A stretch of 34,388 bases of DNA from a virus: IMG/VR virus record IMGVR_UViG_3300021963_000385, positions 1-34,388 of that record; one strand, 5' to 3'. The notes under the pieces are model-generated. The model worked only from the letters and a program-made list of their open reading frames with translations. It had not been told where the DNA came from and made no database searches. A program made the translations under genes and the position numbers. The first letter of the stretch is position 1, and the number at the start of each line of letters is the position of its first letter. Of this stretch, positions 4,878 through 10,398 are shown in pieces.

Positions 4878-4950
4878 TGGACCATAGCTCAGCAGGCAGA
4901 GCGGGAAGCTGTTAACTTCTAGGTCCTAGGTTCGAATCCTAGTGGTCCAG
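4878..4950 (+). tRNA. tRNA-Asn (GTT)
   Basis: A complete 73-base cloverleaf. The acceptor stem is TGGACCA pairing with TGGTCCA, followed by the D arm GCTC/GAGC, anticodon stem GGAAG/CTTCT around loop CTGTTAA (anticodon GTT), T arm CTAGG/CCTAG around TTCGAAT, and discriminator G, as expected for Asn. The 3' CCA is not encoded and must be added by the host. The tRNA-Arg gene follows after four bases, presumably on the same transcript. Confidence 0.93.
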
Positions 4951-4954
4951 CAAT

Positions 4955-5028
4955 ACCTCTGTAGCTCAGTGGAATAGAGCGAGACTCTTCTAAGGTCTGC
5001 GTCGCAAGTTCGATCCTTGCCAGGGGTG
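4955..5028 (+). tRNA. tRNA-Arg (TCT)
   Basis: Acceptor stem ACCTCTG pairing with CAGGGGT (one G-T pair), D arm GCTC/GAGC, anticodon stem AGACT/GGTCT around CTTCTAA (anticodon TCT), T arm GCAAG/CTTGC around TTCGATC, and discriminator G. CCA is not encoded. It reads AGA and AGG, the Arg codons that dominate the accessory genes here, such as the dioxygenase cluster. The tRNA lies two bases from the stop of the minus-strand gene at 5030. Confidence 0.9.
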
Positions 5029-5029
5029 C

Positions 5030-5521
5030 TTATAGTATATCTGTAAAATAGTTTCCATTAATGTAAATCTTAGATGCGGTAGTTAATGTATATGGACTAG
5101 TTGATGTTAAAGTAAATTCTCTTACTGGTTTAGGTGTTGGAGTATCTCCGCCAAGCCAATGTAAATCTAATGTCTGGCTTCCTGGCAAATGATCGCAGTT
5201 AAGTATTATGTGGTTTGCTAGATCTGGATTTCCTTGTGACGGATCATACCAGACCCACCCTGGAAAGTGGTTCATTGTTCCAGCATGTGGAGAAAAAGGA
5301 AGATCTACTTTAAGCTGACCCGTCCCAAAGTTAGTAACTGTAGACAAGTCTATTTGAATCCAAAAGCTAACATTGTATCCAGACTTTGAGTAGACTGATC
5401 CAGCTGTTGGGTATGTGGAATTTGTTCCAGTGAATGTCATACCTGTTGCAGAAAATACTGGACTCCAATGAATTGGAGGTTGTGGAGGTATTGGGCCTAT
5501 TCCTACTGTATTAAATGGCAC
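5030..5521 (-). CDS. Putative virion-associated beta-rich protein
   Basis: A 163-residue protein rich in Thr, Ser, Gly, Pro and aromatics, with no membrane segment and only one Cys. A Pro-rich N-terminus (GPIPPQPPIHWSP) is followed by alternating polar and hydrophobic strands and a tail of TLTSTSPYTLTTASKIYING. The composition resembles small phage fibre-tip or decoration proteins, but I do not recognise a named family. Its start overlaps the end of the 93-residue gene upstream by eleven bases, so the two are one operon and probably coupled. It is separated from the main structural cluster, next to the tRNAs. Confidence 0.5.
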   Translation of the reverse strand: MPFNTVGIGPIPPQPPIHWSPVFSATGMTFTGTNSTYPTAGSVYSKSGYNVSFWIQIDLSTVTNFGTGQLKVDLPFSPHAGTMNHFPGWVWYDPSQGNPDLANHIILNCDHLPGSQTLDLHWLGGDTPTPKPVREFTLTSTSPYTLTTASKIYINGNYFTDIL

Positions 5522-5792
5522 GTTCTATCACCAATATCGCTGCCGTCATTGTATTACTTGAACATACTGCGTAAAGTCTATTTAGAGAAGAGAACTCAAT
5601 TGTAAATCCTTGACCAGGATACAATTTATATCCGTAAGAAGATGTTGACACATTAGGAGATCCAAGATATATATATCCAGAGTCATTGTTATTTTGAACA
5701 ACAAGTGTGTAGCTTGATTGAACAACGTCTTCAAATGTTAAAGCTACAGGAGTACTTGTTGATAAAGTTACTGTTTTATGTCTAGTCTGCAT
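5511..5792 (-). CDS. Small beta-sandwich virion-type protein
   Basis: A 93-residue protein with the pattern SGYIYLGSPNVSTSSYGYKLYPGQ, then SLNRLYAVCSSNTMTAAILVIERA. This layout (an IYlG-p-VS turn, a PGq strand, RLYAV-s and a final I-V-E-A strand) recurs in many small phage proteins annotated as structural or hypothetical near head or baseplate genes. A role as a decoration or adaptor protein is inference. The message is probably leaderless: TATAAT lies 6 bases before the ATG at 5792, with TTGGAA 17 bases further upstream. That -35 box lies in one arm of a perfect 14-base inverted repeat (5816-5855), so control by a protein or by the overlapping small RNA is possible. Confidence 0.55.
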   Translation of the reverse strand: MQTRHKTVTLSTSTPVALTFEDVVQSSYTLVVQNNNDSGYIYLGSPNVSTSSYGYKLYPGQGFTIEFSSLNRLYAVCSSNTMTAAILVIERAI

Positions 5793-5798
5793 TCTTCT

Positions 5799-5827
5799 AT
5801 TATACCCTTAAATATAACAAATTCCAA
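5799..5827 (-). promoter_or_regulatory. Promoter for the 5792-5030 gene pair
   Basis: Minus strand: TTGGAA (5827-5822), a 17-base spacer, TATAAT (5804-5799), then 6 bases to the ATG at 5792. The -35 box lies within the inverted repeat 5816-5855. Confidence 0.65.
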
Positions 5828-5905
5828 TCAGAGGCGGATCCGATTGGAATTTGTTGCGCCAAAGCGCTGTATGGGGAACAAATGGTGGGATGCTACAACC
5901 CATAC
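5810..5905 (-). ncRNA. Candidate structured small RNA
   Basis: About 96 bases between two minus-strand genes, preceded by a strong promoter (5912-5940) whose predicted start falls exactly on 5905. The transcript would begin GTATGGG, which pairs with CCCATAC at 5875-5869 around a 23-base loop. One base later a GCGC-TTTG-GCGC hairpin follows (5867-5856), directly joined to a perfect 14-bp stem (AACAAATTCCAATC with its complement, 5855-5816) with a 12-base loop. The stem is followed by ATATTT, a weak U-rich tail that could end transcription. No ORF of note lies inside. Three helices packed end to end behind a consensus promoter argue for a functional RNA. No known family was recognised, and function is unknown. 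The alternative is an untranslated leader for the 5792 gene, although that gene has its own promoter. Confidence 0.5.
5816..5855. repeat. Perfect 14-bp inverted repeat
   Basis: AACAAATTCCAATC (5816-5829) and its exact reverse complement (5842-5855) flank 12 bases. It can act as the 3' hairpin of the candidate small RNA and also covers the -35 box of the promoter at 5799-5827, so it may be a terminator, an operator, or both. Confidence 0.8.
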
Positions 5906-5911
5906 TAAATT

Positions 5912-5940
5912 AGTATAAAACAGAGAAAATTCAAAGTCAA
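5912..5940 (-). promoter_or_regulatory. Consensus promoter of the candidate small RNA
   Basis: Minus strand: TTGACT (5940-5935), exactly 17 bases, then TATACT (5917-5912). The predicted start, six bases past the -10, is 5905, the first base of the first RNA helix. It is among the strongest -35/-10 pairs found in the window, and no coding start follows it. Confidence 0.7.
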
Positions 5941-5950
5941 TACTATTTGA

Positions 5951-6136
5951 CTAGTTTATAAGCTGTTTTGTAACTAGTAGGTCGTATACGTTTCCAAGCA
6001 TGTATTCGATGGATGGTCTGCTTTTTTCTTCCATCTTCTCAAGTTCGTCTTGAGGCATGCCAGAACCCTGAGCCATCATTCTATTGTCATTTAAGAACGA
6101 CTCAAGCATCATACTTACAACTTCTTCTTTACTCAT
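5951..6136 (-). CDS. Small protein of unknown function (61 aa)
   Basis: A 61-residue acidic, Met-rich protein beginning MSKEEVVSMMLESFLND with a helical, amphipathic look and no Cys or membrane segment. I do not recognise it. Its start overlaps the stop of the preceding 72-residue gene by eight bases, and it is the last of four tiny overlapping genes on the minus strand. Its stop is followed within eleven bases by the -35 box of the small-RNA promoter. Coupled translation is likely. Confidence 0.55.
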   Translation of the reverse strand: MSKEEVVSMMLESFLNDNRMMAQGSGMPQDELEKMEEKSRPSIEYMLGNVYDLLVTKQLIN

Positions 6137-6347
6137 TTTCTTCCTTTGCTCTAAATGCTGGGGAGGGTCCCAACAAAAATCCCTCTTTATGATATTCTAT
6201 CATTTTTTCTAACTCTTGACTAGATACAGTTTGCTTTGCCATAAGAAATAATATGTCATAAATCCTATGAAGCATTATGTAATTTACCATTGGCAAATTG
6301 TCTTCTATTGTACCTTCAACATTTTCTTCAGACACTATATTTTCCAT
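6129..6347 (-). CDS. Small protein of unknown function (72 aa)
   Basis: A 72-residue acidic protein with a helical middle (YIMLHRIYDILFLMAKQT) and no recognisable domain. The segments HRIYDILFLMAKQ here and GNVYDLLVTKQ in the next gene share a Y-D-L-K-Q pattern, so the two may be diverged relatives. Its first 19 bases overlap the end of the 64-residue gene upstream and its end overlaps the start of the 61-residue gene downstream, so it sits inside a tightly coupled operon. Confidence 0.55.
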   Translation of the reverse strand: MENIVSEENVEGTIEDNLPMVNYIMLHRIYDILFLMAKQTVSSQELEKMIEYHKEGFLLGPSPAFRAKEENE

Positions 6348-6522
6348 CCGAAGTTATTTCAAAAAGGACGTCGTTTAAATTTTTACCTTTAGATAGAGAT
6401 TCATCTAAATATTCCACAAATCCCTTTATTGTTCTATCCGCTATTAAATCTCTTGGAATATGAGCACATGGAATAACCATGGCAATTTTCATCAAGAGGT
6501 CTTTATTGTATGTGCTTTCCAT
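6328..6522 (-). CDS. Small protein of unknown function (64 aa)
   Basis: A 64-residue protein, MESTYNKDLLMKIAMVIPCAHIPRD at the N-terminus in two stretches, ending with LNDVLFEITSDGKYSV. It is probably helical, with no motif I can name. Both ends overlap neighbouring genes by about 20 bases in other frames, a compact arrangement that favours translational coupling and argues that all four ORFs in this run are real. The function is unknown. Confidence 0.55.
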   Translation of the reverse strand: MESTYNKDLLMKIAMVIPCAHIPRDLIADRTIKGFVEYLDESLSKGKNLNDVLFEITSDGKYSV

Positions 6523-6685
6523 CCACCACTCTTTTCATCTCAGAATATATCTCTATTCCGATATAAGACTTATAACTACAAGATATGCAGTATAAATATA
6601 TTTTGTCTTCAACATCTATGTTAGGGAAAAGAAGGCCTTGATCTATTGGGCAATTCATTTCTTGAACAAGGCCCTCTTTTGCCAT
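6503..6685 (-). CDS. Small Cys-containing protein (60 aa), possible zinc ribbon
   Basis: A 60-residue protein with CPIDQG near residue 12 and a CISC pair near 34-37. This resembles a zinc ribbon lacking one ligand: C12 followed by D15 in place of a second Cys, then CxxC. It leads the run of four overlapping small genes. No Shine-Dalgarno is obvious before the ATG at 6685, and the upstream region is very AT-rich with no -10 I would commit to. Function is unknown; small zinc-ribbon proteins in phages often bind host enzymes or nucleic acid, but nothing here shows which. Confidence 0.5.
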   Translation of the reverse strand: MAKEGLVQEMNCPIDQGLLFPNIDVEDKIYLYCISCSYKSYIGIEIYSEMKRVVDGKHIQ

Positions 6686-6731
6686 TGATAAATATTTTGA
6701 AACTATCTGTATCTTAATATTTATCTCCTAA

Positions 6732-7292
6732 CTAATTCGGAAATTCTTTGAGCCATTTTTTTGTAGTTGGCGTCAAGCCTTTCCAGGATGACCAGTCTTT
6801 ACCGCCATCAGTCATATAGTACGTTATCTCTGCGTTTATTACTGGATCAAATAATAGTACATTTGATCTCAAATTGAATTTCTCTTTACGATCTTCGCCA
6901 AGAGTACCTAGCATATTGATCTGAAAAATTCCGTAGGAACTGTCTCCAGTATTCCTGTTGCCGTTGTAAGCCATTGGTCGTCCATTGGACTCCTTCTTAG
7001 CTACGGCCCAAGCCATTTTAAGGGCTTGTCCTTCAAAACCTACAGACTTGAGAAGTTGCAGCAACTCTTTGTCTGTTAGCATTTCCGAAGGTTTGTACAC
7101 AGTATTGCTGAACTTTTCCAGCGATTCTTTCTTCAGTTGTGCTTGCTGTTGTATAGAAACTTCTGGTTTAACAACCAGTGCTTCTGCTGATGGCATTGGC
7201 TTCGGCTGGACTCCAAATAAAAATAATGTTATCATTCCTATTGTAGTCCAACTATGAACAACGCTGCTCAGTTTTTCTTTTATATTCTCCAT
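6732..7292 (-). CDS. Membrane-anchored lytic transglycosylase-like lysin
   Basis: A 186-residue protein. A hydrophobic stretch at residues 17-29 (TIGMITLFLFGVQ) after a short Lys-containing start looks like a signal anchor, followed by a Gln/Lys-rich linker. The C-terminal domain has the lysozyme-like transglycosylase core: AWAVAKKESNGRP with catalytic Glu101, then NTGDSSYGIFQIN at 114-126, a signature of the SLT/goose-lysozyme superfamily. It should cleave the glycan strands of host peptidoglycan during lysis or entry. I prefer the ATG at 7292, seven bases after AAAGGAGG, over the ATG at 7298, which is too close to that site. This is one of the strongest Shine-Dalgarno sites here. Only the region near the catalytic Glu is clearly conserved. 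Confidence 0.8.
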   Translation of the reverse strand: MENIKEKLSSVVHSWTTIGMITLFLFGVQPKPMPSAEALVVKPEVSIQQQAQLKKESLEKFSNTVYKPSEMLTDKELLQLLKSVGFEGQALKMAWAVAKKESNGRPMAYNGNRNTGDSSYGIFQINMLGTLGEDRKEKFNLRSNVLLFDPVINAEITYYMTDGGKDWSSWKGLTPTTKKWLKEFPN

Positions 7293-7324
7293 TGGCATTC
7301 CTCCTTTAGAGATAACGAACTATA

Positions 7325-8409: not shown

Positions 8410-8466
8410 AGGACTCTATCTAAAATTTAATCAATCCGTTAGGCGGAAGAAAAGGTGTCACTGAAA

Positions 8467-10398
8467 ATGTCAAGAACTATTGAAAACCCGTATGAAAACT
8501 TTATTGCACTATCACGATATGCAAGATGGCTACAAGAAGAAAATCGTCGTGAAACATGGGGAGAGACAGTAGATCGATATTTCGACTTTATGACTAATCA
8601 CCTTTCAAAGATGAACTACGTTCCAGATGCAAAGTTGTTAGCAGAACTTAAGCAAGCAGTATATGATAGAAACGTAATGCCATCAATGCGATCAGTGATG
8701 ACTGCAGGTGCTGCATTGGATAGAGATCATGTCGCTGGATACAACTGTTCATTTGTTCCAGTAGACAACCCACGATCATTTGATGAAACAATGTATATCC
8801 TTATGTGCGGAACTGGTGTTGGTTTTTCTGTTGAATATAAGTATGTTAATAAGCTTCCATCCGTTCCAGAATCATTTGAAAAGTCTACAACTGTTATTAC
8901 AGTGGAAGATTCAAAGACTGGTTGGGCAAAAGCATATCGTGAGCTACTTGCAATGTTGTGGGCAGGACAAATTCCAGCAATTGATGTAAGTAAGTTACGT
9001 CCAGCAGGTGCACGTCTTAAGACAATGGGTGGACGTTCATCAGGCCCTCAGCCATTAATCAATCTATTTGATTTTACAATTGCAAAGTTTAAGTCAGCAG
9101 CTGGTCGTCAGCTAAAACCAATTGAAGCACATGACTTAATGTGTAAGATTGGAGAGGTTGTTGTTGTTGGAGGAGTTCGTCGTTCTGCAATGATTTCACT
9201 TTCAAACATTAACGATATTGAAATGGCTCAAGCAAAATCTGGCAATTGGTGGGAAAACAATTCTCAACGTGCACTTTCAAATAACTCTGTTGCTTATTCA
9301 CGCAAACCAGATATGGAGCAATTTATTGCAGAATGGAAATCACTATATGACTCAAAGTCAGGCGAACGTGGAATTTATAATGTCGCAGCAGCGCAAAAGC
9401 AAGCGGCAAAGTTTGGACGCAGAGATCCAGAAGTACATTACGGAACAAACCCATGTTCCGAAATTATTCTACGTCCTTATCAGTTTTGTAATCTTTCAGA
9501 AGTCGTATTACGTGAAAGTGATACAAAGAAAGATATCGAAAGAAAAGTTGAACTTGCAACTATTCTTGGAACGTGGCAGTCAACGCTAACAGACTTTAAG
9601 TACTTACGTAAAATCTGGAAAGACAATACAGAAGAAGAACGATTACTAGGCGTTTCTTTAACTGGACAGTTTGGGCATAAGTTTATGTCAGGAAAAGAAG
9701 ATCTTGTTTCACTAGAAGCGTTTCTAATGACTTTAAGAGAAAAAGCAAGAGAAGTTAATTCAGACATTGCTGCAAAGATTGGTATTCCTGAGTCTGCAGC
9801 CATTACATGTGTAAAGCCTTCTGGAACAGTTTCTCAATTGGTTGGAGTATCTTCAGGAATGCATGCTTGGCATTCAGATTATTATATCCGTACAGTTCGT
9901 GGAGACAAGAAAGATCCACTATCAACATTCTTAAAGGAAGTCGGAATTCCAGTTGAAGATGATGTCATGAAGCCAGGAGATACTCATGTATTTTCATTCC
10001 CAGTTAAGGCACCAGAAGGTGCAATCACTAGAAATGATTTAACAGCAATTGAACACTTGAATACTTGGTTGGTTTACCAACGAGCATGGTGTGAGCATAA
10101 GCCTTCAATTACAGTTTCTGTAAAAGAAGATGAGTGGATGGAAGTTGGAGCATGGGTCTACAAACATTTTGATGAGGTATCTGGAATTTCATTCCTTCCT
10201 CATTCAGATCACTCTTATAAGCAAGCTCCATACCAAGAAGTAACAAAAGAAGAATATGAAGCTCTTGTAGCAAAGATGCCTAAGAATATTCGTTGGGAAG
10301 ATTTATCATTTTACGAGACAGAAGATGGAACAAGCGGAACCCAAACCCTTGCATGTACATCAGATGGAAATTGCGAGATTGTAGATATTTCAGCTTAG
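8467..10398 (+). CDS. nrdJ: Adenosylcobalamin-dependent ribonucleoside-triphosphate reductase (class II)
   Basis: A 643-residue enzyme that reduces ribonucleoside triphosphates to deoxy forms for phage DNA synthesis, using vitamin B12 coenzyme and so working with or without oxygen. Key residues are visible: C94 in GYNCSF and C341 in QFCNLSEV (the reducible pair), the thiyl-radical C330 and E332 in GTNPCSEIIL, the specificity-type GTGVGFSVEY at 115-124, and the C-terminal shuttle pair C630/C636 in CTSDGNC. It matches the monomeric Lactobacillus leichmannii type but is about 100 residues shorter than that 739-residue enzyme. The start is either the ATG at 8467 (MSRTIENPYENF, which I prefer) or the GTG at 8455. 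The gene stands alone behind its own promoter; no thioredoxin-like partner was seen nearby, so the host must re-reduce the shuttle cysteines. Confidence 0.95.
   Translation: MSRTIENPYENFIALSRYARWLQEENRRETWGETVDRYFDFMTNHLSKMNYVPDAKLLAELKQAVYDRNVMPSMRSVMTAGAALDRDHVAGYNCSFVPVDNPRSFDETMYILMCGTGVGFSVEYKYVNKLPSVPESFEKSTTVITVEDSKTGWAKAYRELLAMLWAGQIPAIDVSKLRPAGARLKTMGGRSSGPQPLINLFDFTIAKFKSAAGRQLKPIEAHDLMCKIGEVVVVGGVRRSAMISLSNINDIEMAQAKSGNWWENNSQRALSNNSVAYSRKPDMEQFIAEWKSLYDSKSGERGIYNVAAAQKQAAKFGRRDPEVHYGTNPCSEIILRPYQFCNLSEVVLRESDTKKDIERKVELATILGTWQSTLTDFKYLRKIWKDNTEEERLLGVSLTGQFGHKFMSGKEDLVSLEAFLMTLREKAREVNSDIAAKIGIPESAAITCVKPSGTVSQLVGVSSGMHAWHSDYYIRTVRGDKKDPLSTFLKEVGIPVEDDVMKPGDTHVFSFPVKAPEGAITRNDLTAIEHLNTWLVYQRAWCEHKPSITVSVKEDEWMEVGAWVYKHFDEVSGISFLPHSDHSYKQAPYQEVTKEEYEALVAKMPKNIRWEDLSFYETEDGTSGTQTLACTSDGNCEIVDISA

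Follow-up and report, generated by a model that had tools for sequence, protein, structure and literature searches.

In staphylococcal small RNAs with a UCCC loop (RsaE type, RNAIII), C-rich hairpin loops pair with G-rich ribosome binding sites. The 6C RNA is built from three helices with two C-rich loops (PMC6582537), and among phage-encoded RNAs, the small RNA PreS of phage lambda targets the host gene dnaN (PMC12197685). Here, we analyzed a 34,388-base virus record from IMG/VR with a G+C content of 36%, referred to below as the window, whose minus strand carries a consensus sigma-70 promoter and, behind it, an RNA of three hairpins, the last of which resembles a terminator (positions 5940-5808). 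Two C-rich loops on three helices occur in RNAs of the GTAGCATCCCAC type, including that of the window, and several sub-groups lack the first C-rich loop. The locus is flanked on the same strand by four small ORFs and an SLT lysozyme-like gene (SLT_3 domain, E = 7.7e-15) on its upstream side and by a 93-aa ORF on its downstream side (Table 1). Two plus-strand tRNA genes of the window (4878-5028) converge on the RNA locus, and a variable spot beside the RNA is occupied in relatives by tRNAs and HNH genes.

Structure, conservation and distribution of the RNA

The initial annotation had proposed a structured small RNA behind a consensus promoter, and each of the parts it named was found: a TTGACT and TATACT pair separated by 17 nt, a perfect 7-bp helix whose first base is the predicted +1, a tetraloop-type hairpin (GCGC-TTTG-GCGC) and a perfect 14-bp hairpin, designated here P1, P2 and P3 for the helices. 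Its statement that no coding start follows was inexact, as an ATG at 5792 opens the downstream 93-aa ORF, which has a TATAAT of its own. The proposal as a whole is supported by covariation, by conserved promoter geometry and by a downstream region that is not conserved. The P3 stem is lengthened beyond its 14 pairs by G-U, G-C and A-U pairs up to a TCCGCC hexaloop, and the whole RNA is about 95-110 nt long. The predicted fold of positions 5905-5793 has an energy of -40 kcal/mol (z = -4.04 against dinucleotide shuffles), and single folds of other members give z values of -5.1 to -6.6. The covariance model R1, whose seed includes the window, matches it at 5808-5911 with 97.6 bits (E = 6.5e-21). 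Most relatives have a T-run after the P3 stem; it is weak in the window, and a simple scan did not pick it up. The count from a promoter scan of the window shows no excess (14 found versus 9.6 +/- 3.2 by chance), and the feature therefore stands beyond chance because it is conserved in relatives, not because of this count.

Table 1. Positions of the RNA, its promoter, its neighbours and its candidate target in the window
Feature	Position	Strand	Basis and details
-35 hexamer TTGACT	5935..5940	-	Sequence; TTGACT or TTGACA in 80/86 homologues
-10 hexamer TATACT, 17-nt spacer	5912..5917	-	Sequence; promoter scores of homologues
Small RNA	5808..5905	-	Predicted +1 at 5905; probable 3' end about 5810-5816
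Helix P1 with inner hairpin P1b	5869..5905	-	P1, 5905-5899 with 5875-5869; P1b, 5894-5891 with 5880-5877
Helix P2, GCGC-UUUG-GCGC	5856..5867	-	Covariation
Helix P3, terminator-like hairpin, 14 perfect pairs + 3	5816..5855	-	Covariation; 14 pairs, 5855-5842 with 5829-5816
P3 hexaloop UCCGCC, proposed interaction site	5833..5838	-	Invariant block AUCCGCCU, 5839-5832
Upstream neighbours: 61-, 72-, 64- and 60-aa ORFs and SLT-domain lysozyme-like protein	5951..7298	-	Conserved
Downstream 93-aa ORF, not belonging to the RNA	5511..5792	-	ORF list
Candidate target, nrdJ leader	8435..8469	+	Hairpin UCCG/CGGA; AGGCGGA 8441-8447; likely SD AAAAGGUG; ATG 8467

The 93-aa ORF has 11 relatives in IMG/VR, whose upstream regions contain the same promoter and three-hairpin RNA with changed stems. 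Two DNA patterns, representing the first loop and the top of P3, gave at least 120 matches each, and the loci collected in this way were retained only if both stem and loop were present. Because loop patterns select for loops, contigs were gathered by neighbour proteins instead. The 72-aa ORF has 583 relatives; of the contigs with the best 80, 79 have the RNA immediately downstream in the same orientation, and it is present at 70 of 77 SLT-protein loci; the RNA-less contigs in these neighbour sets (L271; L341, L348, L349, L372, L388, L392, L394) all stop before the RNA site. The upstream neighbours keep the same order and orientation in nearly all homologues whose contig is long enough, and each of 12 IMG/VR records searched whole with the covariance model, up to 115 kb in length, holds one copy per phage. 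That the RNA is a real gene is near certain, and, as judged from these contigs, a large group of uncultured phages from freshwater has it as a single copy at a constant place.

Searches of Rfam 15 (4227 families) with the window and 12 loci spanning the diversity returned only tRNAs above the gathering threshold and, under relaxed thresholds, nothing credible at the RNA locus. When the region and two diverse members were compared with 50,697 phage records (INPHARED) by BLASTN, no meaningful match emerged. A scan of 84,980 species genomes for the P3 core yielded five matches, which were rejected as chance occurrences in different settings (e.g., GC-rich DNA) and have neither P1 nor a promoter. 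Likewise, the single weak match of R1 in 396 Actinomycetota genomes (28.6 bits, E = 0.004 for one genome), which lies inside GC-rich DNA, was dismissed because a search of 396 genomes is expected to yield as many by chance. In addition, a lone P3-like terminator with the same UCCGCC loop is located directly after a coding gene on the minus strand of L167 (1359-1459); it is not accompanied by P1 and P2, and its R1 score is 46.3 bits.

Sequence change in the stems without compensation had been named beforehand as an observation that would count against the RNA; the stems do change in relatives, with compensation in every helix. In an alignment of 86 members to R1, which leans to the model, 95.8% of cells are paired, versus 33-46% in slid controls, and 20 of the 29 pairs show compensatory changes, with 346 doubly changed cells. 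Such changes occur in six of seven pairs of P1 (98.8% of cells paired; P1b, 88.9%), in all five modelled pairs of P2 (93.7%) and in seven of 13 modelled pairs of P3 (97.2%); for P3 the neighbour-ascertained set gives eight of 13 pairs and 99.5%. Read with the window structure, 47 diverse members in a plain MAFFT alignment have 91.8% of cells paired versus 38-48% when slid and 83.1% in shuffles, with changes on both sides in 20 of 29 pairs. None of 500 shuffles reached the covariation score, and across alignments paired cells amount to 92-96% versus 30-48% when slid. RNAalifold recovers P1 and P3 without a supplied structure. On this comparative evidence, the secondary structure of the RNA is under selection.

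The invariant loop and the nrdJ leader

The P3 hexaloop UCCGCC, closed by GA/UC, is invariant while the stem around it is rewritten. The block AUCCGCCU is identical in all 31 distinct sequences of the 72-aa ORF set and all 35 of the SLT set, both gathered without use of the RNA sequence; the GA/UC closing pairs vary little, and pairs 87-96 and 88-95 never vary in the neighbour-ascertained set. Most members combine a first loop AUCCCAC with the third loop UCCGCC. Since the P3 loop remains even in the most divergent members, where P1 is completely rebuilt, it is the most constrained part of the RNA, and it is probably also its working part.

The window harbors an exact complement of this loop, GGCGGA (8442-8447), in the leader of nrdJ, which encodes a class II ribonucleotide reductase (RNR). 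At ORF starts of RNA-bearing contigs, GGCGGA occurs 52 times versus 17 expected, mostly at nrdJ, and in two sets of distinct nrdJ leaders it is found in 91 of 98 and 61 of 63 (about 95%); among the seven negative leaders of the 98, some belong to N-terminally extended RNR forms whose true leader is positive. Some 20 nt upstream of the ATG and next to the likely Shine-Dalgarno sequence, the motif forms part of the 3' arm of a small hairpin in the leader. The 5' arm shifts register (CCGC, CCGU, GCC) and GGCGGA stays, indicating conservation beyond what the hairpin alone requires. All six near-complete phages have GGCGGA in their nrdJ leader. Across 69 gene families of these phages, full conservation in any one leader is reached by only 42 of 4096 hexamers; of the 448 hexamers with at least five G/C, GGCGGA alone is among these 42, in a test that was preceded by examination of several k-mers. 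In seven relatives that lack the RNA, none of the RNR leaders contains GGCGGA, although phylogenetically this amounts to one contrast.

In addition, GGCGG is present upstream of dnaE in five of the six near-complete phages. AGGCGG is about 6-fold enriched at Shine-Dalgarno positions, as are other SD-like words (e.g., AGGTGG, 5-fold); the general enrichment of GGCGGA at start sites was therefore rejected as proof of targeting, and only its conservation at nrdJ was kept as target evidence. Complements of the first loop (GTGGGA, TGGGAT) are not enriched at start sites. In six phage genomes (e.g., L246-L250), AGGCGG is found at the Shine-Dalgarno position of several genes, among them dnaE and those for proteins of 107 and 67 aa.

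The perfect GGCGGA has been lost in at least six nrdJ leaders (L054, L065, L066, L150, L369, L334), of which L065 keeps a G-U version; these phages retain the RNA loop together with an nrdJ hairpin of other sequence, so that the leader hairpin alone could explain much of the pattern. A small hairpin before the nrdJ ribosome binding site (8435-8447 in the window; about 160 loci) persists even in these six leaders, where its sequence has changed completely, so that it may represent a separate regulatory element. Because a few leaders have lost GGCGGA and the motif resembles a weak Shine-Dalgarno sequence, we regard nrdJ as a lead only.

With this caution, we tentatively read the locus, at somewhat under an even chance, as encoding a stand-alone phage regulatory small RNA whose P3 loop pairs near the ribosome binding sites of nrdJ, and possibly dnaE, and tunes their translation. 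From the conserved promoter and the conserved hairpin, we infer that host RNA polymerase with its housekeeping sigma factor transcribes the RNA from TTGACT-N17-TATACT and that the transcript terminates at P3, with P1 and P2 likely acting as structural stabilisers. The loop GA-UCCGCC-UC would then base-pair over about seven bases with AGGCGGA beside the ribosome binding sites of phage mRNAs, that of nrdJ first and possibly that of dnaE. The effect on translation would most likely be obstruction of the 30S subunit; alternatively, opening of the nrdJ leader hairpin would lead to activation.

Pairing with the nrdJ mRNA is thus put forward, with less than even confidence, as the best-supported mechanism, and binding of a host or phage protein by the invariant loop, for example as a decoy, comes next. 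Such protein binding is doubtful but deserves serious consideration, given that the conserved unit comprises the loop and its closing GA/UC pairs, which vary little where Watson-Crick exchange would be free, and a constrained loop with closing pairs is typical of protein or tertiary recognition. To our knowledge, Actinobacteria generally lack Hfq, which also counts in its favour. However, protein binding would leave the complement in the nrdJ leader as chance. Rather unlikely is a trans-acting RNA whose main targets are host mRNAs, for which the nrdJ match would be incidental: known phage small RNAs such as PreS act on host genes (PMC12197685), and some phages with the loop have lost the nrdJ site, but the conservation at nrdJ would go unexplained.

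The invariant block also resembles the 3' tail of 16S rRNA (GGAUCCGCCUC versus GGAUCACCUCC). It is improbable, though conceivable, that the loop serves a set of phage replication genes (nrdJ, dnaE and others with AGGCGGA starts) as an additional, trans-acting anti-Shine-Dalgarno; if true, one RNA would switch dNTP supply and DNA synthesis together. Mimicry of the 16S end in a broader sense, in which the loop pairs with Shine-Dalgarno sequences generally or diverts factors that recognise this end, is very improbable: GGNGG words do occur at start sites of these phages, but the loop is a poor complement of the commonest site, AGGAGG, and the resemblance was noticed after the fact.

Promoter geometry and the downstream region

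The promoter keeps a fixed relation to the RNA. Among the 86 homologues, the spacer is 17 nt in 81, the distance from the end of the -10 hexamer to P1 is 6 or 7 nt in 74, and the promoter score reaches at least 9 of 12 in 83, a level attained by 150 of 1720 random 50-nt pieces of these contigs. In L159, L160 and L195, a sub-group with N-terminally extended RNR, the RNA has no recognisable promoter and may be processed from an upstream transcript. A small-protein reading was rejected, as the RNA lengths are not multiples of three (35/27/24 homologues by length modulo 3) and no ATG-initiated ORF is conserved among the 86.

What follows the RNA differs between relatives. A tRNA-like region takes the place of the ORF in L014 and L015, annotated same-strand tRNA genes begin within a few bases after the RNA in L018, L028 and L033, opposite-strand tRNAs converge on it in L017, L034 and L037, and other relatives have HNH genes or unrelated ORFs. 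Since conservation does not extend downstream, the locus is a gene for an RNA rather than the leader of a single mRNA. In the window, the 93-aa ORF starts six bases past TATAAT (5804-5799), a promoter of its own. A TATAAT precedes the start by exactly 6 nt in 29 of 727 genes from seven phage sequences, whereas any other distance accounts for at most nine; this sharp peak implies that the mRNA of the 93-aa ORF is probably leaderless, and the pattern suggests many leaderless mRNAs in these phages.

It is accordingly highly improbable that the RNA is a mere 5' leader or attenuator of the 93-aa ORF or a mere terminator of the upstream operon. The ORF does begin 16 nt past the model end in the window, and P3 resembles an intrinsic terminator. 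However, this ORF varies in relatives and has its own leaderless promoter, for which reasons the leader reading was rejected; relatives carry convergent tRNAs, HNH genes or unrelated ORFs at this position, and a bare terminator would need neither P1, P2 and a consensus promoter nor an invariant loop. A functionless chance origin of the inverted repeats, which the near-expected promoter-scan count would allow, is practically negligible, being already refuted by covariation and universal syntenic presence.

Phage group and relation to known RNAs

The portal protein and RNR of the window are 55-58% and 60-67% identical, respectively, to those of Stanwilliamsviridae phages of Streptomyces. WhiB, an actinophage marker (PMC6802176), is encoded in seven of the 10 larger RNA-bearing records; none was found in the window fragment. 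Together, the kinship with Streptomyces phages and the presence of WhiB indicate that the host is probably an actinobacterium, and the phage group as a whole probably infects Actinobacteria. The RNA is a core gene of this large, uncultured group, for which 583 IMG/VR stretches encode a relative of the 72-aa neighbour. Regulatory RNAs in phages of the most abundant freshwater bacteria have been essentially without prior knowledge, and this one is missing from Rfam and has a concrete, directly testable candidate target. It also offers a ready probe for metatranscriptomes, as R1 detects the locus on contigs where protein annotation shows nothing.

The gene order of the window (SLT lysin, glycosyltransferase, class II RNR, portal, protease, capsid) matches that of Stanwilliamsviridae. 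Among the members compared (Muntaha, NootNoot, Evy, Tribute, Kenrey, Mandalore), the order of lysin, glycosyltransferase, RNR and portal is shared; however, their RNR leader lacks GGCGGA and the RNA was not found: R1 detects no copy in two whole Stanwilliamsviridae genomes, nor in the RNR regions of the other four, and the RNR region of one Pseudomonas phage is negative as well.

Among described RNAs, the staphylococcal RNAs of RsaE type and RNAIII, compared by Rfam scan only, belong to another phylum and carry a UCCC loop instead of UCCGCC. PreS is likewise a phage-encoded small RNA linked to DNA replication, the proposed targets here being the phage genes nrdJ and dnaE, but it is Hfq-dependent and acts on a host gene, and no relation in sequence or structure was seen. 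The Rfam model of 6C gave no match at its gathering score, nor any at E values up to 10. The 6C RNA of Actinobacteria nevertheless shares with the phage RNA the three helices, a length of about 100 nt, a probable actinobacterial setting and, for members of the GTAGCATCCCAC type, the two C-rich loops; it differs in being chromosomal and adjoining the Ms1 RNA gene, whereas the phage RNA has its own loop sequence and carries its invariant loop at the position of the terminator. The phage RNA is thus a new RNA family, of a kind resembling C-rich-loop small RNAs such as 6C.
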